From: a virus
DNA: 24,978 bases
Reading direction: 5' to 3' (one strand)
IMG/VR virus record: IMGVR_UViG_3300033149_002977
Location: 1 to 24,978 of that record
The notes under the pieces are model-generated. The model did no database searches, was not told the origin of the DNA, and saw only the letters and a list, made by a program, of their open reading frames with translations. Numbering within the stretch: position 1 is the stretch's first letter; each line of letters starts with the position of its first letter. The translations under genes and the position numbers were made by a program. Positions 3,196 through 20,306 of this stretch are shown here, piece after piece.

Positions 3196-3251
3196 TTGTC
3201 AGCAATTTTTTAGTTCTTTTAAAACCTTAAAATAGGAAGGGGGTGTATAAT

Positions 3252-3437
3252 ATGAAGGGATATTCTTACAAAATTCAAGGTAATCAATTGATTATTACAG
3301 TTGATTTGAATTCTAATCTTGGTCAATCTCAATCGGGTAAATCTACACTTATTGCAAGTTCATACGGCAAGGATGTGATTGCTCATAAGGGACAGGTTAT
3401 TAATCTCAATATTAATGTTTACAAACCTAACCGTTAA
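3252..3437 (+). CDS. Small conserved-type protein with SGKSTLIAS segment, 61 aa
   Basis: ATG 3252 is preferred over an in-frame GTG at 3243, because the purine-rich site GGAAGGGGG (about 3235-3243) overlaps the GTG and is well spaced for the ATG. The product is a short beta-rich domain: KIQGNQLIITVDL, then QSGKSTLIASSYG, then a C-terminal strand ending NVYKPNR. The GKST string looks like a P-loop, but 61 residues cannot hold an NTPase. I recall a widespread small family with the pattern SxSGKSxxxASTxG and no known function. The gene stands alone with its own candidate promoter and terminator, which suggests independent regulation. Confidence 0.65.
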   Translation: MKGYSYKIQGNQLIITVDLNSNLGQSQSGKSTLIASSYGKDVIAHKGQVINLNINVYKPNR

Positions 3438-3454
3438 TCAAGCAATTCAAAAAC

Positions 3455-3484
3455 AGCCCGGGTCATTTGGCTCGGGCTTTTTTG
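3455..3484 (+). terminator. Rho-independent terminator
   Basis: AGCCCG (3455-3460) pairs with CGGGCT (3473-3478) around a 12-base loop, followed by a run of six T. It ends the 61-residue gene 18 bases after its stop codon. Confidence 0.85.
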
Positions 3485-3571
3485 TTTTCTGGCAGGTAAA
3501 TCGTTTTACTACGCTTGCTGGTGCAATTTTTTAGTGTAAGATATATGAAACTATGGCTTTTTGTTTTCTAT

Positions 3572-3600
3572 GGCTCTCAGGCGTTCCTGGGGGCTTTTTT
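3572..3600 (+). terminator. Hairpin with T-run, terminator-like
   Basis: The arms at 3572-3581 and 3586-3595 form 10 pairs including three G-T pairs around a CGTT tetraloop, followed by T6. No gene lies just upstream, so it may be a second-chance terminator or the end of an untranslated RNA. Confidence 0.65.
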
Positions 3601-3616
3601 ATGCTCGGATAGATTG

Positions 3617-3662
3617 AAAAATGCGTTTTAAGGCGTCTATCAGGCTCGCTGGTGCATTTTTA
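3617..3662. terminator. Inverted repeat AAAAATGC/GCATTTTT, possible bidirectional terminator
   Basis: The perfect 8-base arms at 3617-3624 and 3654-3661 enclose a 29-base loop. Flanking A and T runs would allow termination in either direction. It is weaker than the two hairpins to its left. Confidence 0.4.
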
Positions 3663-3782
3663 GAAGGCTGGTAATGGTTTTATATGGTTTTTGAGACAAA
3701 CGGGCTGTATGAGGCGTTTTTGAGCGTTTTTTGAAGGTTTTGTTGTTTTATGACTGCTCATTACTTATTTATTATATTTGTT

Positions 3783-6753: not shown

Positions 6754-6972
6754 ATGCAAAAAAAGATGCAAAAATTATTCCAGAATAACGAAGATTATGA
6801 AATAGATTTAAACTATTTTAAATGCCCTTATTGTGAAAATCACGATTGGGACGAATTCAGGCGAACGAAGAGTAAAATTATAGAGGAAAACGGGGAATAT
6901 TTTGAAAAATTAACCCTGTTTTGTCTTGAATGTGGGGCGTTTATTAACTTATATGGCAAAATCAGTGAATAA
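6754..6972 (+). CDS. Zinc-ribbon protein, 72 aa
   Basis: CPYC (near residues 24-27) and CLEC (near 57-60) form two CxxC knuckles about 30 residues apart, the classic zinc-ribbon layout. The stretch between is acidic and basic with a probable beta-hairpin (SKIIEENGEYFEKLTLFC). The start is uncertain: TTG 6751, ATG 6754 and ATG 6766 are all in frame and none has a clear ribosome-binding site; I give the first ATG. Zinc ribbons often bind DNA, RNA or protein partners. It lies between the FlbD-like gene and the portal in the same operon. Confidence 0.6.
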   Translation: MQKKMQKLFQNNEDYEIDLNYFKCPYCENHDWDEFRRTKSKIIEENGEYFEKLTLFCLECGAFINLYGKISE

Positions 6973-7016
6973 GTGTATAACTTATTAACATATTTGTAAT
7001 GAAAAGGTAAACAAAA

Positions 7017-8927
7017 ATGGCAGAACCTATTACAAACGCAATGAATGAGCAAATAACTACTTTATCTGCACCTAATTTGTCTTTATCTGATGAAGAAACC
7101 CGACTTTTAGGTAAACTTAATGAATGGTTTAGTGAGGCAACTAAATATATACAACCCAGACGGGAACGATGGCGTAAAAATGAACAACTTTATCTTAACA
7201 AGGTGGAAGTATTTGGGCGAAAAGGATGGACGGAACTAAAATTTAATCTTGCACTTGCTATAATCCGAACAGAAATGGCTATTATATCTGATTATCTCCC
7301 TACTTTTGACATCATAGGCGAGGAGGAAAACGACCGATTTTTTGCTAATATGCTTCAAAAACGCAAAGCACAAATAGAACGCTCGGCACAACTTGTAGAT
7401 AAAATCCTTGATACTATACACGACGGGCTTAATTATTCTAATGGTCTCTGCGAAATTCAACCTGTTATTCAAACAATCACTAACCCCGATGGAACTTCAT
7501 TTAAAAAACTTACTATCCAAGCAAGATTAGTTGACCCGTTTACCTGGCTACCTGCACCTTATTCCACAGGAATGGATATACGAACTGAATGTCTATACCA
7601 GATGTTTGCAACTCCTGTTCATATTGACATCATAAAACGCACTTATGGAGTTGAAGTTCCCGCAGAAGGATACCTTGATGAAAATCGTGCGTTCCATCTT
7701 GTAGAAGACCCACAGAACCAGCCTTTAAATTCTAAATATGCATTAGTTAAAGAATGTTATTTTATGGACGAAGATTTAGATAAATACCCAAACGGACGAG
7801 CAGTCGTATGGGTTGGAAATAGAATTCTTGAAGATAAACCTATTGGGATTGCTGTGAATGGTATCATAAAACCAGAGGAGTTCTCTCTATTACCTTACTT
7901 TATGATTGGCAACTATAAAACTGCACATTCTATATTCGGTATAGGTGAAGGCGAACTTGTTAAATCCCAAATTAAAGCATTCAATCAAGTTATGTCTTCT
8001 CTTGCGGATAATATCAAAAAACAAGGTAATCCTATCCGTAAAATCCGTAAACATCTCGCAAGACAACTTGAAAGTGCAATACTTGGTGTTGCAGGTGAAG
8101 AGATTGAAGTTATTGAACCTGATGATATAACCTGGGATGTTCCCCCAAATGTTCCTTCACATACTTGGAACTTTCTTGAATGGCTTTTACGCTTAACTGA
8201 TACAATCACAGGTGTTCACGATGTTACGCAAGGACGCCGACCATTAGGTATCACTGCTGGAATTGCAATTGCAGAACTCCAAGAAGCAGCCCAGACAGCA
8301 GTCAGATATAAAATCAAAAAATACATAAACCCATTCATAATCTCAATGGGACGATATATAACATATCTCTTACAAAACCTTGATGAGGAAGTTAAAGAAA
8401 TTCGTGATTATACCGCAACTGAACCTGCTTATACTTTATATGACCCGCTTTCTCGGTATGATAAATATGGCAGACGAGAAGGCGAAGAAGGATTTGACGA
8501 AACCACCGCTAAAACAATCCGTGATGCTAAATTTGAAGTTGAAGTTGTAACAGGTATCCGACTTCCATCTGGCAGGTTTGAAGATGAAGCAAGACGGATT
8601 GAAAAGTTTAAAGCAGGTATATACGGAATTGAAGATGTAACTATATATGAACAAAACCGAGACGAAATTATATCCCGATACTATCAACGAATGGGATTAG
8701 CACAACTTAAAGAACGGCAAGAAGCCCTGAATGAAGCATATAACCAATTTACACAACTTATATCTAAATCATTAAGCACTGAAAAACAATGGATTGGAAG
8801 CCCAGAAGAGGAAACAATGGCAAGACTTCTAAAACAGTTTCCTGAACTTCTTAATACAGAAGATTTCGCTAATTTACCATTGAAATATAAAAATAATCTA
8901 TTAGAAGTGTTCAAAATAGGTGCATAA
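7017..8927 (+). CDS. Portal protein, 636 aa
   Basis: The portal is the dodecameric ring at one head vertex through which DNA enters and leaves. The protein has the layout of P22/T7-type portals. An N-terminal helical part contains WRKNEQLYLNKVEVFGRKGWTELKFN (about 51-76, landmark WRKNEQLY). A central alpha/beta region follows, with the stem/crown signature TQGRRPLGITAGIAIAELQE and AAQTAVRYKIKKYINP near 403-436. The C-terminus is a long charged helical region (about 540-636). The length fits a podovirus portal. AAAAGG about 9 bases before ATG 7017 is the ribosome-binding site. Its place after terL and before the scaffold supports the call. Confidence 0.9.
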   Translation: MAEPITNAMNEQITTLSAPNLSLSDEETRLLGKLNEWFSEATKYIQPRRERWRKNEQLYLNKVEVFGRKGWTELKFNLALAIIRTEMAIISDYLPTFDIIGEEENDRFFANMLQKRKAQIERSAQLVDKILDTIHDGLNYSNGLCEIQPVIQTITNPDGTSFKKLTIQARLVDPFTWLPAPYSTGMDIRTECLYQMFATPVHIDIIKRTYGVEVPAEGYLDENRAFHLVEDPQNQPLNSKYALVKECYFMDEDLDKYPNGRAVVWVGNRILEDKPIGIAVNGIIKPEEFSLLPYFMIGNYKTAHSIFGIGEGELVKSQIKAFNQVMSSLADNIKKQGNPIRKIRKHLARQLESAILGVAGEEIEVIEPDDITWDVPPNVPSHTWNFLEWLLRLTDTITGVHDVTQGRRPLGITAGIAIAELQEAAQTAVRYKIKKYINPFIISMGRYITYLLQNLDEEVKEIRDYTATEPAYTLYDPLSRYDKYGRREGEEGFDETTAKTIRDAKFEVEVVTGIRLPSGRFEDEARRIEKFKAGIYGIEDVTIYEQNRDEIISRYYQRMGLAQLKERQEALNEAYNQFTQLISKSLSTEKQWIGSPEEETMARLLKQFPELLNTEDFANLPLKYKNNLLEVFKIGA

Positions 8928-10060: not shown

Positions 10061-11107
10061 ATGGCTCTTAATTATAATACTATTCAAGCGTTAATAAACA
10101 AGAAGTATCTTCCTGTTCTGTATGATAACATCTTTACTGCTAATCATTTCCTTCTTGCGAAACTGAAACAAAAAGCAAAAACTTACAACGATAGAACTAT
10201 TGTTGTTCCGCTTGAATACGCAAAAAGCACGACCATAGATTTTCTTGCAAGAGGTGAACCAATCACTCTGGCATCAGAGGAACTCGTAACCGCTGCGGAG
10301 TATTCTCCCAAGATGTTAAGTGCTTCTCTTACCATCTATCTTGAAGATGAACTTGAAAGCAAATCTGATATGGCTATTAAGAATATTCTTGATGTTAAAC
10401 TCCGAAATATCCAGCGCTCTATTGAGGAATATCTTGCATCTTATCTCTGGACAAGGGGTGTATCTAATCCTGATTCTAACGGTTGGAATACTATTGACCA
10501 TCTCATTAACGATGATGATTCTACTGCCGTTGGTGGAATTCCTGCTTCTGGAACACAATATTCTTGGTGGAAATCTAATATGATTGATTTGCAGGATGGT
10601 TCTTTTACTGGTGATGCTACACAGGAAGCGGATTTAAAAGATAGTTCCAAAGATGTATATTTACTTAAACTCTATGCTCGTGGAGTTGCGAAGTCTAAAT
10701 ATCAGACAGGCAAGAACCCTGATTGTATTATAGTTCCGCAGTATATCTGGGATTTGACTGAACAAATCCTGCACGAACAAAAACTCGGAACTACTATGCA
10801 AGTTATGGTTGGTGATATTGGATTTACGGCACTTAATTTCAGGGGTATTCCTATTGTTGCGGATGACGATATGGTTGCAGCGCAGACAGGAGATACTGAT
10901 GGTAGAATATATTTCATTAACACAGAGTTTATGTATATGTTCTTTAATTCAGGTGCAAAGTTCACAGCGTCAGAGTTTGTAAAATCTGCAAACTTGAATG
11001 CAAGAACTTCTTTAATTAATGCTTATGGAAATATTGTAATTTCAAATAGAAGGTCGCAGACCTGTATATATAACATTCTATCACCGAAATCTTATTCTTC
11101 AAATTAA
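10061..11107 (+). CDS. Major capsid protein, 348 aa
   Basis: This is the coat protein of the icosahedral shell, expected to have the HK97 fold. The N-terminal arm begins MALNYNTIQALINKKYLPVL and is followed by a beta-rich stretch (TIVVPLEYAKSTTIDFLARG). The spine helix region lies at about 105-135 (ESKSDMAIKNILDVKLRNIQRSIEEYL). An insertion with WNTIDHLINDDDSTAVGG follows at 142-159, then a C-terminal P-domain strand set including MQVMVGDIGFTALNFRGIP (about 246-264). The N-terminus and length look like capsid proteins of uncharacterised podoviruses. AAGGAGG ahead of ATG 10061 is strong, as expected for the most abundant protein. No signal peptide is present, unlike many tail genes downstream. 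Confidence 0.9.
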   Translation: MALNYNTIQALINKKYLPVLYDNIFTANHFLLAKLKQKAKTYNDRTIVVPLEYAKSTTIDFLARGEPITLASEELVTAAEYSPKMLSASLTIYLEDELESKSDMAIKNILDVKLRNIQRSIEEYLASYLWTRGVSNPDSNGWNTIDHLINDDDSTAVGGIPASGTQYSWWKSNMIDLQDGSFTGDATQEADLKDSSKDVYLLKLYARGVAKSKYQTGKNPDCIIVPQYIWDLTEQILHEQKLGTTMQVMVGDIGFTALNFRGIPIVADDDMVAAQTGDTDGRIYFINTEFMYMFFNSGAKFTASEFVKSANLNARTSLINAYGNIVISNRRSQTCIYNILSPKSYSSN

Positions 11108-11465: not shown

Positions 11466-12281
11466 ATGAAAAAGTTAATAACTATATGGCTTGCTATACT
11501 TATTCTTGTTCCATCTGTTGTTTTCTCTCAAAGTAAATCAGATATTAATCGTGCAGTATGGAAAGTCATTACAGAAGGGATACTTTATCCTGATGCTTTC
11601 AAGTCCGCAGTGTTTTTTGATGATTTTTATAATCTCCCTGATACCACCAACAACTGGGATGTTTATATGACGACCACCACTGGCAAAATTGAAATCTCTA
11701 CTGTTGGGGCTTATAGGTTTTCATCTCCCCTTAAATATGGTGGTGGAATTCTTACATTAGCAAACAATGGTGGAACTCAATCAACAGTGGTAAACATTCA
11801 GAAAAAGGGTATAGTTGCAGTTATTGAAACAGATACTTCTAAAAGGGAAACAAGCGATATTCAGAAAAGTGATAGACAAATTGAGTTTGAAGCAAAAGTA
11901 TTTCTGAATGACACCACAAATATTGGTTTTGTTGCTGGTCTTATTACTGCGGATGATGATTCTGTACGAAACGGGTCTGCGTTTGGTGGAATTTACTTTG
12001 AGAAACCTTATGGAACTAATACATATTATTTCCGAAGCAGGCGTGCAGGAACAACTGTTTCCAGAACTTTAACTAAAATTACAGCAAATTCTGATACATC
12101 TTGGATTACTCTTAAATTTGTAGTTTATGATACAAATAATGTTATTCCCTATGTAAACGGGCTTCAAGATTCAGCAATTACAACTTATATTCCATTTGAT
12201 AGCGTATTAGTTCCTACATTTGAAGTTAGTAATGATACGGTTTCTATTGATTATGTGAAAGTAGTTCAAAAGGATAGATAA
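11466..12281 (+). CDS. Signal-peptide-bearing lectin-like (jelly-roll) virion protein, 271 aa
   Basis: Residues 1-21 are a textbook Sec signal: MKK, then 15 hydrophobic residues, then VVFS with Gln22 at +1. The mature part starts with a helix and then FFDDFYNLPDTTNNWDVYM, followed by many predicted beta-strands (FEAKVFLNDTTNIGFVAGLI, SAFGGIYFEKP, WITLKFVVYDTNNVIPYVNG). That pattern matches concanavalin-like jelly-roll proteins found among phage structural proteins. No catalytic site is visible. GAGGTAAAG precedes ATG 11466. A role in surface binding is inferred; a signal peptide on such a protein is unexpected. It abuts the next gene (12282) with no gap. Confidence 0.65.
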   Translation: MKKLITIWLAILILVPSVVFSQSKSDINRAVWKVITEGILYPDAFKSAVFFDDFYNLPDTTNNWDVYMTTTTGKIEISTVGAYRFSSPLKYGGGILTLANNGGTQSTVVNIQKKGIVAVIETDTSKRETSDIQKSDRQIEFEAKVFLNDTTNIGFVAGLITADDDSVRNGSAFGGIYFEKPYGTNTYYFRSRRAGTTVSRTLTKITANSDTSWITLKFVVYDTNNVIPYVNGLQDSAITTYIPFDSVLVPTFEVSNDTVSIDYVKVVQKDR

Positions 12282-12569
12282 ATGGCGATTTATTATGTTT
12301 TACTTGATGGAACAGATAATACTTATATAACAGGAACATCTGATACCCCCCAGACAATAAAGTTTGAGGATTTAAAAGATATTGAGGGTAATCAGTTACC
12401 AACTGGGGGGTTTTCTTCTATACCGTTTATGATAATAAAACGATTACCTGAAAACCAAAGAGATGCTGTAATTACAAACATTACAAAAACACAGTTTCAG
12501 GTTTATATGATGGATTACGGAGATTTATCTATCACACAGGGTAAATATTTACTTATTATAAAAGATTAA
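12282..12569 (+). CDS. Small beta-domain virion protein, 95 aa, paralogous to the N-terminus of the 15612 protein
   Basis: Its ATG follows the previous stop directly, with AAAGG upstream. No signal peptide is present. Residues 17-95 align without trouble to the first 90 residues of the protein at 15612: TGTSDTPQT versus TGTSDSPQT, GNQLP versus GNSLP, and MDYGDLSITQGKYLLII versus NDYGYIGSGQILCNLLI. So the domain exists here on its own and there fused to an adaptor domain. It is beta-rich and probably a small structural module. The function is unknown; the neighbourhood indicates the tail or neck. Confidence 0.65.
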   Translation: MAIYYVLLDGTDNTYITGTSDTPQTIKFEDLKDIEGNQLPTGGFSSIPFMIIKRLPENQRDAVITNITKTQFQVYMMDYGDLSITQGKYLLIIKD

Positions 12570-12579
12570 AGAGATTATA

Positions 12580-14217
12580 ATGAACAGAAAAACAGTTATA
12601 ATTGCTTTCATATTAGCATTATTTTATTTTCTATTAATTTCCAGTCCACCTTCTCAACCACAGGTAGGTTCTCGTAAAGGATGGCGGATTACTTCTGGGA
12701 CTTTATATGTAGATACAGTTAAAGCGTATAGGGATACAGTCTGGTTTGTTTCCCCTATGCATTTTGATACTGTTGTAGTTACTAAATTGTTTGTTGATAC
12801 GGTTGGGACAGATACACTGGATAGTATGTATGTTACATCTTCTCTATTTGCGAATAAGTTTTATACGAAGCAAGTTATATTTGACGACTCTATATATGCA
12901 TTGAAGTATAATAAGAACACAGGGAGATTTTTTGGAGATTTTATTCTATTTATTCCTGTTGATAGTCTTTTTCCATTTTTTTATGTTGGGAATGATTGGA
13001 ATAATGATTTTTCTAATAGAAGGATGGTGAGATTTATAAATGATGGAATTAATGGTGCAACTTTTCCTGATGGAGCGGATTTTGTTGTTGTGGATATTCA
13101 GGGGAATTTATGGGATATAGGTGCACAAGAAGATTCTATTAAAGGAGATTTTATTGGAACATATAGCAGTGCAAGAACTCAAATAGGTGGATTTGCAAAG
13201 CGAGCAATAGGGTTATATAGTGTTGGTGGCGATAATGGAACAGGTAAAGTTTATATTGGTATAGGAACAAAGACCTATTCAACGGGAGCAGATACAAATA
13301 TAGGATTATGGGCTTATGGGACTGATTATGGAGCAGTATTTGGAACAAATTGGTATAGTGGAGTTGATGGATATGGAAATGTGTGGGTTGAGGATAACTT
13401 ATATTTAGGGGATAATAAAGCAGATATTATAGATACAATAAAGATAGAAATAAATCCGTTAATCTCTGATTCTGTTCAAGATACTAAAACTCAACTTTAT
13501 TCTGCGATTTCTGATTCTGTTCAAAAGGCTAAAAGAGATACAGTTTTTATTGGTAATAATAATTTAACTTCAAAAAGCGATACATTATTATTTAATGGTA
13601 AATATATCTTAACTGCTGATAGCCTTACTCGTATTGAGACAGTTCAACTCCTTCCAGAAATCCCTGGGATTGTTTGGGATACAACAGAGACTACTAATCC
13701 AGATAGCCACAAGATAACCGTGTATGCTTGCTATGATACAGTTAAGTGGTCGGATGCTCGTAATAAGGCAAATGTTTATAAATTGATGTTGAACGAGGAT
13801 GTTCCCCAAGTTCAGTGGCACTATATAAAAGCGCATATCCAATGGTCAATACCAAATGATTTTGTGGCTTGGGCTGATAGTGGCATATCAGTTGGAGTTT
13901 ACTCCACTGATTATCTGTATGGACAAGCGAAAGTTGTAGTTAAAAGGATTAGATACGATGGAGCAAGTATTACTTTTACCGTTGTAGATAGTCTTGATTT
14001 TCAGACTTCTTATAGTATGTATCTTACTTCGTTCCCTTTGTGGAGTTATGCTCATATCCCGAGAATAACTGGTGCGGAGTTAAACTCTGTTGATTGGTAT
14101 CCAGATGACATAGTTATGATAGATGTTGAATTTAAAATGCAAAAGTGGACTGATGACTATGTGTATCCATTAAGATTTGGTGGAGTAAGTTTAAGATATA
14201 TTAAAAGGGAATATTGA
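12580..14217 (+). CDS. Tail fibre/appendage-like protein with N-terminal hydrophobic signal, 545 aa
   Basis: Residues 1-20 are basic then strongly hydrophobic, followed by SSPPSQPQ. This could be a signal peptide cut before Gln26 or an uncleaved anchor; the -3 Pro makes cleavage less certain. Residues 38-110 hold repeated beta units with the pattern (V/F)DTVxV (YVDTVKAYRDTVWF, FDTVVVTKLFVDTVGTDTLDS), typical of fibre shafts. The middle is Gly/Tyr-rich beta. A short helical repeat ISDSVQ (DNA copies at 13462-13479 and 13507-13524, 45 bases apart) suggests a coiled coil. The C-terminal 150 residues form a separate beta domain. AAAGAG precedes ATG 12580. A receptor-binding or appendage role is inferred. 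Confidence 0.6.
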   Translation: MNRKTVIIAFILALFYFLLISSPPSQPQVGSRKGWRITSGTLYVDTVKAYRDTVWFVSPMHFDTVVVTKLFVDTVGTDTLDSMYVTSSLFANKFYTKQVIFDDSIYALKYNKNTGRFFGDFILFIPVDSLFPFFYVGNDWNNDFSNRRMVRFINDGINGATFPDGADFVVVDIQGNLWDIGAQEDSIKGDFIGTYSSARTQIGGFAKRAIGLYSVGGDNGTGKVYIGIGTKTYSTGADTNIGLWAYGTDYGAVFGTNWYSGVDGYGNVWVEDNLYLGDNKADIIDTIKIEINPLISDSVQDTKTQLYSAISDSVQKAKRDTVFIGNNNLTSKSDTLLFNGKYILTADSLTRIETVQLLPEIPGIVWDTTETTNPDSHKITVYACYDTVKWSDARNKANVYKLMLNEDVPQVQWHYIKAHIQWSIPNDFVAWADSGISVGVYSTDYLYGQAKVVVKRIRYDGASITFTVVDSLDFQTSYSMYLTSFPLWSYAHIPRITGAELNSVDWYPDDIVMIDVEFKMQKWTDDYVYPLRFGGVSLRYIKREY

Positions 14218-14228
14218 GGTGAACTAAA

Positions 14229-14414
14229 ATGGCTCGTTTAAAACCAAAAGGCAAACGGGGGCGTGTAGCAGTAAAGAGATTAGGGCGGACTTATAAAACT
14301 GGAAACTTTGAAAAGATAGCAAAGAAAGCAGCCAAAAAATATGGTAGTAAAGAAGCAGGTAAAAGAGTTGCTGCTGCGGTTTACTGGAAAAAAGTTAAAA
14401 AGAGAAAAAAGTAA
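14229..14414 (+). CDS. Very basic small protein, 61 aa
   Basis: About 40% of the residues are Lys or Arg, distributed through the protein (MARLKPKGKRGRVAVKRLGR..., ending KKVKKRKK). The second half has the pattern KIAKKAAKKYGSKEAGKRVA followed by AAVYWKK, a helix of a type I recall in small basic phage proteins. GAGGTG precedes ATG 14229. It probably binds DNA or RNA electrostatically, either as a virion DNA-condensing protein or as a regulator. It sits among tail genes, which favours a virion component. It ends one base before the next gene's ATG. Confidence 0.65.
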   Translation: MARLKPKGKRGRVAVKRLGRTYKTGNFEKIAKKAAKKYGSKEAGKRVAAAVYWKKVKKRKK

Positions 14415-14415
14415 T

Positions 14416-15597
14416 ATGAGATTGTTAAAAATTTTTTTTATATTCTTATTCCCTGTTTCTATATTTGCACAGGAAGTTTTGTATGAGTATAATCCTATAC
14501 AGGTAAAGAGAACAAATAGGGGATATGTATATACTCAAACGATAGCAAGACCGTTTAAAGTTATTAAGCAAGGGGAATGGATACTTAATATAAGCAGGAA
14601 GGATACGATTAAATATAGAATTAAAGGTATTAAGAATTATGTCGGGAAAGGTATAAATGGTATATGGCAGGATAACTTTGAAGTTTCAGATGTAGATAGT
14701 TTCACATACGAAGTTGAAGGGGTTGATATTGAAGCAGATACAGGGAGTTATATTACTAGTCCTATTACAAAGGAAAAAATCAAACTGAAACCGCATTTCA
14801 AGTTCAAGAAAAATGGCAAAGTGATAGCAACTCTTACTGATGTAAAGGCTCTTAATAAGTATAGACTTCCTGTTGAGTTGAAAACGGTGAAGAAAGTTGG
14901 CAAAAAGGCTGTTCATAAGTTTGAATATGATGTTAGATTTGTTGACCCGACTTGGAGTTGGCAACCAGATGCGACGGATGGGAAGGATACTTATGTTATC
15001 TCAAATAATCCTACAACTAACTATGGAACTTCCGAGGATTTATATGTTATGGCAAATAATTATGACGGAACAGTTTTGATTGAGTTTCCTGGTTTAGTTG
15101 ATTCTTTAACGGGAGGACCAGTAGTTGTTGATTCTGCGTATATTAGATTGTATGCTCATATGATTTCTGTAGTAGGAGGTTCTTTTAATGTATTTGCAAC
15201 TCCTTTGATAGAAAGTTGGAATGAGGGAACAGTGACATATAATACGAAACCAGACTCAATAGGAAATACAACTTATAATAGCGATACTCTTTCTTCGAGT
15301 ATAGGAGTGGATGTTTGGTGGAATTTTAATGTTACGAAATCGGTGCAAGCATTTGCGAGTGAGATTCTTTCTTATTATGGATGGGAGATAGCGATGGTTG
15401 AATTGACTGATAATAGACAATTGGCGTGGTATTCGTCTGATTATGCTACCGCAAGCGAAAGACCAAAGATTGAAGTTTATTATACAATTCCAAGTGGTGA
15501 GGGTGAATTAAAAGGAATTATTCCAAAAGTATATAAAGGCACAATAATTCCAAAAGTAGATAAAGGTGTAATTAAACCAAAAGTTAGAGCACCTTAA
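14416..15597 (+). CDS. Secreted-type DNRLRE/CBM96-like appendage protein, 393 aa
   Basis: ATG 14416 is chosen because it begins a clean signal peptide (MRLLKIFFIFLFPVSIFA, Gln19 at +1). The frame is open 25 codons further left, but that would run through the basic gene. Residues 20-180 are a beta-rich N-terminal domain. Residues 183-368 fit the DNRLRE/CBM96 layout: WSWQPDATDGKDTYV, NPTTNYGTSEDLYV, IEFPGL, SAYIRLYAH, IESWNEGTVTYNTKP, and WYSSDYATASERPKIEVYY near the end. The tail has three short repeats of (K)G(x)I-x-PKV. In bacterial secreted proteins this domain binds polysaccharide, so a carbohydrate-binding appendage is likely. The ribosome-binding site is weak. Confidence 0.75.
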   Translation: MRLLKIFFIFLFPVSIFAQEVLYEYNPIQVKRTNRGYVYTQTIARPFKVIKQGEWILNISRKDTIKYRIKGIKNYVGKGINGIWQDNFEVSDVDSFTYEVEGVDIEADTGSYITSPITKEKIKLKPHFKFKKNGKVIATLTDVKALNKYRLPVELKTVKKVGKKAVHKFEYDVRFVDPTWSWQPDATDGKDTYVISNNPTTNYGTSEDLYVMANNYDGTVLIEFPGLVDSLTGGPVVVDSAYIRLYAHMISVVGGSFNVFATPLIESWNEGTVTYNTKPDSIGNTTYNSDTLSSSIGVDVWWNFNVTKSVQAFASEILSYYGWEIAMVELTDNRQLAWYSSDYATASERPKIEVYYTIPSGEGELKGIIPKVYKGTIIPKVDKGVIKPKVRAP

Positions 15598-15611
15598 ATA
15601 AGGAAACAAAT

Positions 15612-16622
15612 ATGAGTTTTATAGAATATTGGATAAAAGATTTAGTTTTAACGGGGACTTCTGATAGTCCACAGACGGTTTATTATTCAAATTTAGTTGA
15701 TAAAGATGGGAACAGTTTGCCGTCTTCTTTTACATCTGCTCCTGTTGTAGTTCCTTTATCAACTAATCAGCAAGTAGGGGCATATTTAACAGAAACCCCG
15801 ACAACGACTTATTTCAAAATAGCAAGAAACGATTATGGATATATAGGTTCAGGTCAAATACTTTGCAATCTTCTTATAGTTGGAACTCCACTCGTAACGG
15901 CAACGGGATTAACTCTTGTTGAAATGCTTGATATACTTGGACGGTATTTGCAAGACCCGACAGAAAAAGAATTTACATCTCAATTTAAAGTGGAATTACT
16001 TAACTGGGCACAGGACGAATTATGCAGACTTTTACAACGACATCTTCTTACTGAACTTGATGTATTGGAAACTTCTTTATCTCTTGATAGCAATGGAGAT
16101 TATGACATTACAAATCTAACATATAATCTGTTTGATGAACCAAATGGCATAGATGCGGTTAGAATTACAGATGGATATTTCTGTTTGAAAATTTCATTTA
16201 AAGAATTCTTAATGTATGAAAGCCTTAATAAAACCTTTAACTCTAATGACCCTGTTTATTATGTTCGTGGTAATAAAATTCATATTGAACCTAATGATGG
16301 AACAGATACAACTATTGATATTTATTACAAAAAGAAACCACAAAGGATGGTTTTAGCGTCTAATCAATCTGAAAATGTTAACTGCGAATTGCGGAGAGAA
16401 TACCAGAAACTTATAATTGGTCTCGCACTTAAAGATTTTATTGACAGAATTCCAGCAGTGAGAAGGATTTATGAGAACACATTATTTGAGATTCAAAATC
16501 TTAATGCAAGTTATTCTCCAACGGATAGTATTAAATTTGGACGAAGTAGATTTTTACCCGAAGATAGATACGAATCTGAAATCCAATCAGATGATACTTT
16601 TATAATTAAAACAAGTTGGTAA
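15612..16622 (+). CDS. Head-tail adaptor fused to a beta-domain, 336 aa
   Basis: There are two parts. Residues 1-92 are a paralog of the stand-alone 95-residue protein at 12282. Residues 98-336 follow the layout of podovirus adaptor proteins (P22 gp4/T7 gp11 type). An N-terminal helix pair (EMLDILGRYLQDPTEKEF, then FKVELLNWAQDELCRLLQRHL) leads to a beta-part (LDVLETSLSLDSNGDYDITNL), a surface strand set (VYYVRGNKIHIEPND, DIYYKKKPQRMV) and a C-terminal helical bundle. A second adaptor-like protein lies at 19689. No signal peptide is present. AAGGAAA precedes ATG 15612. It probably forms a ring below the portal; the extra N-terminal domain may be an outward decoration. Confidence 0.65.
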   Translation: MSFIEYWIKDLVLTGTSDSPQTVYYSNLVDKDGNSLPSSFTSAPVVVPLSTNQQVGAYLTETPTTTYFKIARNDYGYIGSGQILCNLLIVGTPLVTATGLTLVEMLDILGRYLQDPTEKEFTSQFKVELLNWAQDELCRLLQRHLLTELDVLETSLSLDSNGDYDITNLTYNLFDEPNGIDAVRITDGYFCLKISFKEFLMYESLNKTFNSNDPVYYVRGNKIHIEPNDGTDTTIDIYYKKKPQRMVLASNQSENVNCELRREYQKLIIGLALKDFIDRIPAVRRIYENTLFEIQNLNASYSPTDSIKFGRSRFLPEDRYESEIQSDDTFIIKTSW

Positions 16623-16641
16623 ATAAAAGAGAGTGAATAAG

Positions 16642-17172
16642 ATGAAAAAATTTATATTAACAGTTATCTTTTTAAGTATTCCTGTTATAGTTTTAGCACA
16701 GAACAAATACAAAACTTTACCTAATTCTTATTTCTCGGGAACTTTAACTAATACCGCAACCGATAAATACCCTATTGATACTGTTCTCATTGATTTTACC
16801 GCTTACTCTAATTATCTCAATGCGGATACCTGTCTAATATATTTTGAAGTTGATACAGTAGCAGGCAAATACGGTGGGAATGCTTCCGATAGTCTTGGAC
16901 GGAACGCGGTTAGATTACGCTATCAACCAGCAATTAGAATTCCACCTTTGCTTGAATCTTATAAGTCTGCTCTATGGAATGATACACTTCTAAATGTTCC
17001 TGCGGTTTCTCTTACGGATTCTGTGCCTAATATTAATTCTATAAACATCTATAAATTCCAGATTGAATACCCAATGTATCGTTTATATATTGACCATTTT
17101 TACGGGGATACTTCAAAAGTTAATCCACAAGCAAGAAGTTCTTATAAAGGATTTGTAGGATTAAGAAAATAA
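16642..17172 (+). CDS. Secreted-type hypothetical virion protein, 176 aa
   Basis: ATG 16642 is chosen over an in-frame GTG at 16633, because AAAGAGAG sits about 9 bases upstream and the ATG begins a clean signal peptide: MKK, hydrophobic core, VLA, Gln20 at +1. The mature part is beta-rich (NSYFSGTLTNTATDKYPIDTVLIDF, INIYKFQIEYPMYRLYIDHFYG), with many Asp, Thr and Tyr and one cysteine. I recognise no family. It is followed after 6 bases by the nozzle-like gene, suggesting they are made together and may interact in the tail. Confidence 0.6.
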   Translation: MKKFILTVIFLSIPVIVLAQNKYKTLPNSYFSGTLTNTATDKYPIDTVLIDFTAYSNYLNADTCLIYFEVDTVAGKYGGNASDSLGRNAVRLRYQPAIRIPPLLESYKSALWNDTLLNVPAVSLTDSVPNINSINIYKFQIEYPMYRLYIDHFYGDTSKVNPQARSSYKGFVGLRK

Positions 17173-17178
17173 AACAAT

Positions 17179-19692
17179 ATGAATAAAATTATAACAAAAA
17201 TATATCTAATTATTTGTGCTTTTGTATTTTTGTATTCTTGTATTTATTCTCAACCGAGATATATTGATATACGAGATTTCAAGGGTGTATTTACGAATGC
17301 GGATTTAGAGGATATACTGCCTGAATACTTTGTGGTGATGCAAAATCTTCGTCCCGTTTATGGGAAACTTGTTAAGACATTTGGGTTTGGAGATATAGGT
17401 TGGGATAGTAATGTAGGAGTTGATAATTTTGCGGTTTATATTAATTCTCATTTGACCAATCCGAGTGGAGTTAGATATTTCGCTTATACGGTTATGCCTG
17501 TTCCTTATGATACTTTAATTTTAGAATACTGGGATACTTCAACGAATGATTGGGAACAATTATCATTAGACCAAACTTATTATCATAACAACGGAATAAA
17601 CCCTGTTATTCAGGCAGATGGAGTTATTAGATTTCTTGCGGGGAATGTTGGTGAAGTTGATGGTAATGAAGCAAAAGGAGTATGGTATGGATATGTAGAT
17701 AGAAAGTTTTTTGATGAAGGGCTTACTGCACAAGGGTTTATAGTATCGCAAGTTCCCTTAATTCAAAGACCAGAAATAGATGCTTCTGTTTATGCGAAAC
17801 TTGATAGTGGGAGTTTTACTGAAACTAAATATTATAAGTATTCTTGGATTTATGATGGAAACCAAGAATCATTACTTTCAAATGATGGATTGGTAGTTGA
17901 TTATCTTGATGGGCAATATGGTATTCTTAAATTCCCGTTTTCTATATCGGGGCATACTTGGAGGATAACAGGATTAAATATTTATAGAAGCGACAACCAA
18001 GATGGTATATATCATAAAATTCAAACCCTTGATTTTTTACGAACCGCAGAGGATAGTTGTTTAGGTTCACCTGATAACACGGCTTATAATGGTGAATACA
18101 GAATATATGTTCCGCATAGTAATTTCACTTCTTACGCTTTTGATGTTGTTAATAACTCTTATGAGATAGATATAGGTGGAACGCTGATTAAACTTATGCC
18201 TAATATGGGTAGTGGGCAAGAAATTGTTAAAGTTGATTATTCAGAGCGACCTTTACAATACGACATCTGGAACACTTCTTGGACATTATACGCAGATACA
18301 GGTTCGGGGAGTTATGATTATGAAGTGGCAAGTGGTTCTGATAGTGCGTTTGCATCTAAACAAATGGTTATAACAAATATTGATATGGGGAATAGACACC
18401 TTTCTGGGGCTTATATATTTCTTGATAAAAGCACAGTTTATTCTAATACAGTTAGAGAAATTCGCATTGCAGATAAAGTATTCGGAAAAGCTATACATTT
18501 TGTTGATACTCTTACTCTCTCTGATGCAGATAGCACGCTTGCAAAACCCTGGCATTTGTTAGAATCTGGAAACGGGTTATACTGGGTAGATAAAAGAAAT
18601 GATTATGCAAACTATTATTTCCTTGATGCAGGATTGCTTGAAGGTGTAGAACATCCTTATCCTGATGAAGTTTCTCTTAAAGTTAATGGTAAATTTGCTC
18701 AAATTATAGGTAATAGACTGTGGCAGGCTAATATTGTTCTTGACCCTGGTGGAAAGAATGAAGTTCACGAGGATTGGGTTTCTTATTCTGAAATAGGTAA
18801 ATATGATGTTAATCCTGTTTCTAATGTTATTTCATTTGCAAATAGAGGTGCAGGGGAAATAACAGGATTGGCGGAATTATTAGGAAACCCTGTAATACTG
18901 AAAAAGAACAATATCTCAATTATTAATATTCGTTCTAATCCCACTAATCCTGCTTTGTGGAATATTATAGAATCTGTATATAACATTGGAAATATTGCCC
19001 CCTATGGATATATTACTGTTCTTGGGGATTTATATGTATGTTATTATGATGGTATCTATAAATTCAGTCCTAATGACCTTGCGGAAAGTGCAAATACACC
19101 GAGCAAGAAACTAAAAATTACAACACCTATTGAAGATATTTATTTAAACCTTACTCTATCTGAAAAAGAAAACATCAGAAGTGCTTATAATCAAAAGTAT
19201 AATGAAATAATATTCCTATTAGGAGATAATCTCTGGGCTTACAATATAAGTGAAAATTACTGGCGACAGATAAAAATGGCAATATCTTTTAATCCTATAA
19301 TTATGGTTCTGGATGATACTGCTAATGTGATAGTTTATAATAGTTCTGATAATAAGTTCTACTCTTCAAATATCAAAGGGGATACAAGAATAGATTTAAT
19401 AACAAAAACTTTTGCTATATCAGATGAACGGAATGAACCTGTGCAGTATCTCTGGGTGACTCATAAAGAAACTCCAAATCCGTATTCAGACCCGCAGGTT
19501 TATGTGTATATTAACAACGATTCTACTGTTTCTAAAACATTATCTTTGACTTCATCTGATACTTTAAAAACAGAGAAACTTTATATAGGACAAAGGTGTA
19601 AAAAATTTAGATTAAGATTTTACACCATTGACCAAGATAAAAACGATTTTGAATTACATAGAATTAAAATACAATATGAGGGAAACCAATGA
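17179..19692 (+). CDS. Tail nozzle-like protein with a signal peptide, 837 aa
   Basis: Nozzle proteins form the lower tail tube of short-tailed phages; the length is near T7 gp12 (about 790). The mature N-terminus PRYIDIRDFKGVFTNADLED, then LPEYFVVMQNLRPVYGKLVKTFGFGD, is the characteristic start of this family. The rest is a long series of beta-strands with Trp/Tyr (YRSDNQDGIYHKIQTL, NGKFAQIIGNRLW, YVCYYDGIYKFSPND), consistent with propeller-type domains. Ahead of it lies a hydrophobic segment (residues 8-20) and IYS with Gln25 at +1, which is not expected in a cytoplasmically assembled tail. LYSC at 18-21 is a poor lipobox. There is no clear ribosome-binding site. Its stop overlaps the next start as ATGA. 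Confidence 0.75.
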   Translation: MNKIITKIYLIICAFVFLYSCIYSQPRYIDIRDFKGVFTNADLEDILPEYFVVMQNLRPVYGKLVKTFGFGDIGWDSNVGVDNFAVYINSHLTNPSGVRYFAYTVMPVPYDTLILEYWDTSTNDWEQLSLDQTYYHNNGINPVIQADGVIRFLAGNVGEVDGNEAKGVWYGYVDRKFFDEGLTAQGFIVSQVPLIQRPEIDASVYAKLDSGSFTETKYYKYSWIYDGNQESLLSNDGLVVDYLDGQYGILKFPFSISGHTWRITGLNIYRSDNQDGIYHKIQTLDFLRTAEDSCLGSPDNTAYNGEYRIYVPHSNFTSYAFDVVNNSYEIDIGGTLIKLMPNMGSGQEIVKVDYSERPLQYDIWNTSWTLYADTGSGSYDYEVASGSDSAFASKQMVITNIDMGNRHLSGAYIFLDKSTVYSNTVREIRIADKVFGKAIHFVDTLTLSDADSTLAKPWHLLESGNGLYWVDKRNDYANYYFLDAGLLEGVEHPYPDEVSLKVNGKFAQIIGNRLWQANIVLDPGGKNEVHEDWVSYSEIGKYDVNPVSNVISFANRGAGEITGLAELLGNPVILKKNNISIINIRSNPTNPALWNIIESVYNIGNIAPYGYITVLGDLYVCYYDGIYKFSPNDLAESANTPSKKLKITTPIEDIYLNLTLSEKENIRSAYNQKYNEIIFLLGDNLWAYNISENYWRQIKMAISFNPIIMVLDDTANVIVYNSSDNKFYSSNIKGDTRIDLITKTFAISDERNEPVQYLWVTHKETPNPYSDPQVYVYINNDSTVSKTLSLTSSDTLKTEKLYIGQRCKKFRLRFYTIDQDKNDFELHRIKIQYEGNQ

Positions 19693-20306
19693 CAGGTTCG
19701 CAGATGTTAACAGAAGTGAGAAAAATATTAGAAGACCCAGATGGAATGAGGTTTTCTGATGAAGATATTTATAATTCTCTCACTTCGGCGGAACTTAAAC
19801 TTGCAGTATTAATTGATAAAGCATATCTTACAGAATTGAGATATGTAGATACAGATTTAACTTTTACAAATGGAAAATGTCCTGTGTCTTCTTTATCTAA
19901 AACTATTTTAAACGGGCAGGATGGATTGATTACGGTCAAAAGTAGTGCGGGATACTATGCAAGGGTTCTGGATATTAAGAATCTAACAGATTTAAATAAT
20001 ACATACACTCAACCTATTACGGATGTGTTTCCTGCTTGTTATATTCTTAATGATAACATCTACATTCACCCGACAACTATTACACAAGGGGATGTGTTCT
20101 ATTATCGTGTTCCGCTGGGTATTTCTGGGTCTCAAAGTAGTATTCTCAATTCTGTTTTACATCCTTTAATTATTAACTATGCATCTGCGGAACTTTTAGC
20201 AATAGATGAAAAACCAACTAAATCTCAAATACTTGAAGAGAGAACTAATATGTCTATTAAAACTTTAAACACTATTATAGTTGAAAGAAAGTTAGAGAGG
20301 TTATAA
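19689..20306 (+). CDS. Adaptor-like protein, 205 aa
   Basis: ATG 19689 overlaps the nozzle stop by four bases; GAGGGAA upstream is the ribosome-binding site. The layout parallels the C-terminal part of the 15612 protein: a helix pair (TEVRKILEDPDGMRFSDEDI, then LTSAELKLAVLIDKAYL), strands (LRYVDTDLTFTNGKCPV), a hydrophobic strand with ACYILNDNIYIHPTT, FYYRVPLGI, then a C-terminal helical segment with LINYASAELLAIDE. This is the pattern of P22 gp4-like adaptors, so the phage carries two. They may form successive rings, or one may belong to the nozzle. No signal peptide is present. Confidence 0.65.
   Translation: MTGSQMLTEVRKILEDPDGMRFSDEDIYNSLTSAELKLAVLIDKAYLTELRYVDTDLTFTNGKCPVSSLSKTILNGQDGLITVKSSAGYYARVLDIKNLTDLNNTYTQPITDVFPACYILNDNIYIHPTTITQGDVFYYRVPLGISGSQSSILNSVLHPLIINYASAELLAIDEKPTKSQILEERTNMSIKTLNTIIVERKLERL

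Follow-up and report, generated by a model that had tools for sequence, protein, structure and literature searches.

The virus record IMGVR_UViG_3300033149_002977 of IMG/VR was analysed over its full 24,978 bases (hereafter the window), whose 29 genes run from small early genes through a terminase, an SU10-like portal, a scaffold and the major capsid protein to a tail region that includes two SU10-type adaptors. Five proteins encoded after the major capsid gene and ahead of adaptor 2, among them the predicted tail nozzle, have N-termini of Sec type, with a Gln at the probable cleavage site (Table 1; genes are named by their first position). The portal match to PF23899 and both adaptor matches to PF24175 exceed the cut-off, as expected for SU10/Kuravirus-type proteins. 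When annotated phages were searched, the nozzle gave no match, the capsid only distant ones and the portal a single weak one.

Table 1. Features of the window. SP, signal peptide; a slash marks the predicted cut; sequons are D[ST][AILVMT]; L002, L003 and L015 are related loci.
Feature	Position	Strand	Remarks
Portal protein, SU10-like	7017..8927	+	PF23899 E 1.7e-13, phrog_156; no SP
Major capsid protein	10061..11107	+	phrog_9953 E 7e-29; 61% identity with L002 and L003 homologs; no SP
SP-bearing protein, concanavalin A-like (lectin/GH16) jelly-roll fold	11466..12281	+	Second gene past capsid; cut VFS/Q; sequons 6 vs 1.7 expected
95-residue protein	12282..12569	+	Kin to N-terminal domain of adaptor 15612; no SP
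SP-bearing appendage protein, 545 residues	12580..14217	+	Cut PPS/Q uncertain; sequons 18 vs 3.0 expected; L003 homolog signalled
SP-bearing CBM96/DNRLRE protein	14416..15597	+	Cut IFA/Q; 5 sequons; PF24517 E 4e-13, NF033679 E 3e-21
Adaptor 1 (SU10_adaptor) with additional N-terminal domain	15612..16622	+	PF24175 E 4e-10; no SP
SP-bearing 176-residue protein	16642..17172	+	Cut VLA/Q; sequons 5 vs 0.6 expected
Tail nozzle/hub protein with SP	17179..19692	+	Foldseek to SU10 nozzle E 4.5e-12; 7 sequons
Nozzle signal peptide	17179..17250	+	Gained in window/L015 sublineage; +1 Gln is the following codon
Adaptor 2 (SU10_adaptor)	19689..20306	+	PF24175 E 2e-6; no SP

Signal peptides with Gln at +1 in the tail region

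Signals were called with a custom scorer of the n-, h- and c-regions and not with SignalP; checked on four proteins only, it placed OmpA and DsbA above the cut-off and MalE below it, and missed PhoA. In the window it is positive for exactly five of the 29 genes, the same five to which a first-pass annotation of this DNA had assigned clear (11466, 14416, 16642 and 17179) or possible (12580) Sec signals. The terminase, portal, scaffold, capsid, 11137, 12282 and both adaptors score negative, in agreement with the earlier observation that the head and adaptors lack signals. The five genes fall within seven consecutive genes (P about 0.003), and the scorer rate across all loci is 3.8% of 1010 genes. 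The predicted N-termini are MKKLITIWLAILILVPSVVFS/Q for 11466, MRLLKIFFIFLFPVSIFA/Q for 14416, MKKFILTVIFLSIPVIVLA/Q for 16642 and MNKIITKIYLIICAFVFLYSCIYS/Q for 17179, while that of 12580, MNRKTVIIAFILALFYFLLISSPPS/Q, is a weak case with an uncertain cut site. The start of 14416 is an in-frame ATG within the open reading frame 14341, two bases past the end of the previous gene at 14414.

Signal peptidase I of Bacteroidetes follows a Q-rule, with Gln at +1, which is valid also in Ignavibacterium album (77%) (PMC5837995). Among the tail-module signal peptides of the phage group, 20 of 21 have [AGS]Q within the expected stretch, compared with null rates of 0.19 for shuffles and 0.24 for signal-less genes (P about 7e-12). 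The window tail proteins fit predicted Q-rule substrates of this peptidase, as the first-pass annotation had proposed, with the reservation about the cut of 12580. No NCBIfam family for C-terminal sorting domains of the type IX secretion system matched the signal-bearing proteins. A lipobox check of 17179 found LYSC ahead of the Gln, which is an atypical lipobox, and no such Cys in its L015 sister.

Scans of viral contigs yielded 88 loci. Two of these, L003 and L015, stem from a single metagenome, and inside one protein sequence the free end of the first continues into that of the second, so that both probably belong to a single close relative; alignments of 16642 and of the signal-bearing nozzle led again to L003 and L015 and to no further relatives. 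The signal is conserved among relatives for the families of 11466, 12580, 14416 and 16642. Homologs of 11466 follow the capsid gene in L002, L003, L083, L013 and L009, every one with a signal and Gln at the likely cut; the broad alignment of this family was too diverse for use in scanning. The jelly-roll assignment of 11466 comes from AlphaFold2 and Foldseek (pLDDT 61), and its Foldseek matches to toxin receptor-binding domains were taken merely as the common lectin jelly roll. The L003 homolog of 12580 (13817) begins with MKIKLFIFLLLFMTIPIYA/Q and has the predicted cut IYA/Q, which supports the weak signal of 12580 itself. The homolog of 14416 in L015 (2167-3468) has the cut IYG/Q, and that of 16642 in L003 (12419) retains a hydrophobic N-terminus without the Gln.

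That these are chance hydrophobic N-termini or misassigned start codons is exceedingly improbable: the calls do come from a home-made scorer, but clustering, conservation, Gln and the sequons described below agree independently, and the conservation data already contradict it.

Three side observations concern these genes. The C-terminus of the CBM96 protein (window 15500-15597) consists of short repeats, GTIIPKVDKGVIKPKV, with GTIKKLVTDGTIRKLV as their L015 counterpart. Between the 12580 and 14416 homologs, L015 encodes at 496-2070 a B12-binding radical SAM protein (HpnJ/BchE-like, under the curated cut-offs) with a hydrophobic C-terminus, which might modify lipids or glycans. Finally, the distant phage contig L075 has three more signal peptides ending in Gln (3247-3729, 6773-7903 and 18324-18680), possibly an independent case.

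Recent gain of the nozzle signal

Since the nozzle profile matched no sequence in the PDB, a fold search was used to identify 17179. The best match of its AlphaFold model is the SU10 tail nozzle, followed by those of cyanophage A4, P22 gp10, the phicrAss001 muzzle and T7 gp12, and the Foldseek matches to 7z4b/7z47 (E 1e-10 to 1e-12, from a model of moderate quality) indicate the nozzle beta-propeller.

Conservation across relatives, which the first-pass annotation had put forward as a test, is seen in the four families above and not in the nozzle. Among the 30 nozzle homologs with a visible N-terminus only that of L015 has a signal, and the 29 without one start at the predicted mature N-terminus or a few residues off, suggesting that the nozzle signal is a recent gain. 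The starts compare as QPRYIDIRDF in the window, MPKIIDIREF in L002 and VYA/QVKIDIRDF in L015, whose full N-terminus is MKKYLIYFSVLFFFIFLVVYA/QVKIDIRDF. In the nozzle tree the window and L015 are sisters with a support of 100/100, so a single gain suffices. Cleavage ahead of the Gln would thus give back the ancestral nozzle N-terminus. Recruitment of signals may have been stepwise, with the lectin-like protein signalled across diverse relatives and the nozzle in one clade only.

An alternative is that the small signal-bearing proteins are not part of the virion but secreted or cell-surface products encoded in the tail operon, serving for instance to mask receptors or exclude other phages, and that two versions of the nozzle exist, of which only a signal-less one from a weak internal start enters virions. 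Consistent with this, L002, L083, L013, L009 and L011 carry signals on accessory proteins only, with the nozzle unsignalled, and the lectin-like and CBM folds fit surface binding. An in-frame TTG also precedes the +1 Gln, by 7 codons in the window and by 5 in L015. However, this sole start codon near the mature nozzle end lies in T-rich DNA without a Shine-Dalgarno motif, unlike the TTG start of L002, which carries AAAGGA, making an internal-start nozzle unlikely. Moreover, the L015 record has one nozzle gene and L003 none, with the proviso that these records may be incomplete, and nozzle sequons are raised only where the signal is present. We regard this alternative as unlikely.

O-glycosylation sequons in the signal-bearing proteins

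In Bacteroidota, O-glycosylation of exported proteins takes place in the periplasm, on D[ST] motifs whose third residue is L, I, V, T, A, S or M (PMC12871550; PMC8729774). Scored as D[ST][AILVMT], with the expectation taken from composition-preserving shuffles, the sequon occurs 41 times in the five signal-bearing window proteins (8.9 expected) and 46 times in the L003/L015 set (9.8 expected), an enrichment of about 4.6-fold. The signal-less window genes have 10 against 12.1 expected, and 592 signal-less genes over all loci reach 0.93 of expectation. The strongest control is the comparison of nozzles of the same fold: 36 signal-less copies, which include a few N-terminally truncated ones and some near-duplicates, have 184 sequons (172 expected), while the two signalled copies have 20 (5.9 expected; P about 1e-5). 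The window and L015 nozzles share no sequon column, suggesting that sequons rose separately in each. Neither these motifs nor the identity of 17179 as a nozzle had figured in the first-pass annotation.

A set of 18 signal-bearing proteins contains D[ST]x 166 times (74.5 expected), with one of AILVMT as the third residue in 73% of cases compared with a background of 39% (P 2e-18); in the signal-bearing proteins neither the reversed motif nor N/E/G/K[ST]x shows an excess. Glycosylation of the signal-bearing tail proteins is likely, as a prediction from sequence. Export could also be real and glycosylation absent, the excess of D[ST]-hydrophobic motifs reflecting turn-rich beta folds or the style of the host secretome. 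Such a reading gains from the lack of a host match in the genomes searched and from those exported Bacteroidota sets in which no excess of the sequon is seen. It does not explain why signal-less nozzle homologs of the same fold show no enrichment, why the reversed and related motifs are unenriched, or why the third position follows the preference reported in the literature, and we consider it rather unlikely. TonB receptors, SusC/D-type proteins and secreted hydrolases abound in the sequon-depleted exported sets, consistent with Porphyromonas gingivalis, in which abundant surface beta-barrels and lipoproteins are strongly disfavoured for glycosylation while the majority of proteins that face the periplasm carry it (PMC8729774). 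It is this latter, periplasm-facing class that the signal-bearing phage proteins resemble. Because sequon enrichment varies with protein class, it was rejected as a general marker of export. Stretches of Parabacteroides and Persicobacter (L100 and L101) that are rich in outer-membrane proteins show an about three-fold depletion of the motif, suggesting glycosylation avoidance in surface proteins.

The abundance of sequons in the mature proteins, and a nozzle signal whose end coincides exactly with the ancestral start, disfavour two roles that the first-pass annotation suggested for the signals. In the first, tails under assembly would be held at the inner membrane by hydrophobic N-termini that are never cleaved; the segments are of membrane-spanning length and 12419 of L003 lacks the Gln, but 20 of the 21 signals pair a small residue with Gln, a cut there gives back the ancestral nozzle N-terminus, and the sequons imply that the remainder of the protein faces the periplasm, on the opposite side from the heads, so that anchoring is very unlikely. 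In the second, virion tail proteins use their signals after entry, on meeting the membrane of a new host. Tails do contact the envelope during infection, but signal peptides work co- or post-translationally from the cytoplasm, and the sequons and Gln would be left unexplained; we give this hardly any credence.

Comparison with other phages

The window phage shares its portal and adaptor families and its nozzle fold with Kuravirus SU10 (PMC9509320), in whose tail a nozzle hexamer is joined to the adaptor complex. The text consulted in that paper gives no hint of export for SU10, whereas the window and L015 nozzles are signalled. The boundary of predicted export runs between proteins that are neighbours in SU10: adaptors, which would be kept, and nozzle, which would be exported.

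In the mainly open-access literature searched for exported or glycosylated tail proteins, the nearest case is that of the P. gingivalis phages, Nixviridae, which likewise have genes with signal peptides following the Q-rule (PMC10367356). Their five genes are of unknown function and were read as possible modifiers of the host outer membrane; an exported tail hub is not among them and glycosylation is not mentioned. The general O-glycoproteins of Bacteroidota (PMC12871550, PMC8729774) are, like the signal-bearing window proteins, exported with D[ST][AILVMT] sequons, but they are cellular, and the text of the review (PMC12871550) never mentions phage.

As controls we used part or the whole of the genomes of the phages phi14:2 (many of whose virion proteins were identified by mass spectrometry), phi38:1, Flavobacterium 11b and Bacteroides B124-14. 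These tailed phages of Bacteroidota also have exported accessory proteins, with signals on small, mostly lysis-type genes, three of them sequon-rich; no signal was detected on their annotated capsid and tail genes, including the phi14:2 virion proteins identified by mass spectrometry. Signalled tail proteins are therefore not usual for Bacteroidota phages, within the four examined. The statement of the first-pass annotation that no described phage has this arrangement survives the literature and control-phage checks, except that Q-rule phage genes as such were already described in P. gingivalis phages.

Three features lie outside the signal-bearing set. The protein at 12282-12569 resembles the added N-terminal domain of adaptor 15612 (15612-15890), and both are signal-less and perhaps form an appendage dock on the neck. 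The early protein at 411-1409 (332 residues) has beta-solenoid-like INGNV/IxGNA repeats and no PHROG match. The terminase large subunit is 822 residues long in L003 (3901-6369) and 463 residues long in the window; the L003 protein has an intein-like insertion that directly follows the Walker A stretch GYGGAKGGGK and ends in ...VTHNS.

A proposed two-compartment route to the virion

The accepted view is that tailed phages assemble in the cytoplasm. The restriction of signals to the tail side, the +1 Gln, the single nozzle gain exactly ahead of the ancestral N-terminus and the signal-tied sequons suggest that, in this short-tailed, SU10-like phage, whose host would be of a Q-rule, Bacteroidota type, virion parts are probably made in two compartments. 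Predicted export of the nozzle and appendages is well supported. More tentatively, we propose a full scheme. Capsid, portal and the two adaptors would remain in the cytoplasm and give DNA-filled, neck-closed heads, while the nozzle and the appendage proteins (the jelly-roll lectin-like protein, the CBM96 protein and the two others) would exit via Sec. Signal peptidase I would cleave them ahead of the Gln, a host glutaminyl cyclase would convert this to pyroglutamate, and the general O-glycosylation system of the host would modify the sequons. The tail proteins would then be held in the periplasm as stable glycoproteins, with pyroglutamate, which has been reported to stabilise exported proteins (PMC10653852), and O-glycans protecting them during the wait. 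Only when lysis opens the inner membrane would nozzle and appendages dock onto the adaptors of the heads. The resulting short-tailed virion would have a tail of glycoproteins and would presumably include the smaller signal-bearing proteins.

Several points weigh against this scheme. We know of no precedent for a periplasmic nozzle joining heads. The nozzle model is mediocre (pLDDT 68), with low TM-scores and unsure domain placement, albeit with a consistent ranking of matches. Sequon ratios of exported sets are mixed, at 1.98 for Bernardetia, 1.96 for Rhodothermus, 0.84 for E. coli and 0.73 for B. fragilis pBF9343, with depletion in the Parabacteroides (0.33) and Persicobacter (0.35) stretches. 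A host search with capsid and nozzle alignments across 84,980 genomes gave no match. Shine-Dalgarno-like motifs are common here (ahead of 69% of window genes; 64-71% in the window, L003, L002 and L083) and rare in the four control phages of Bacteroidia/Flavobacteriia (0-28%), so that the host may belong to a deeper lineage, in which O-glycosylation would have to be assumed. Together, Shine-Dalgarno use and the Q-rule hint at a deeper Bacteroidota-group host, e.g. Ignavibacteria; the Bacteroidota promoter motif shows no excess within the window.

If true, the proposed two-compartment route would be an undescribed way of assembling a tailed virus, and would change ideas on where tails join heads and offer a possible route for coating tails with host sugars. 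The combination of signal, Gln and sequons would serve as a bioinformatic mark for finding other such phages. A recent export signal on a core tail hub, with its ancestral N-terminus kept and sequons raised alongside, would make an alternative to cytoplasmic assembly directly testable.

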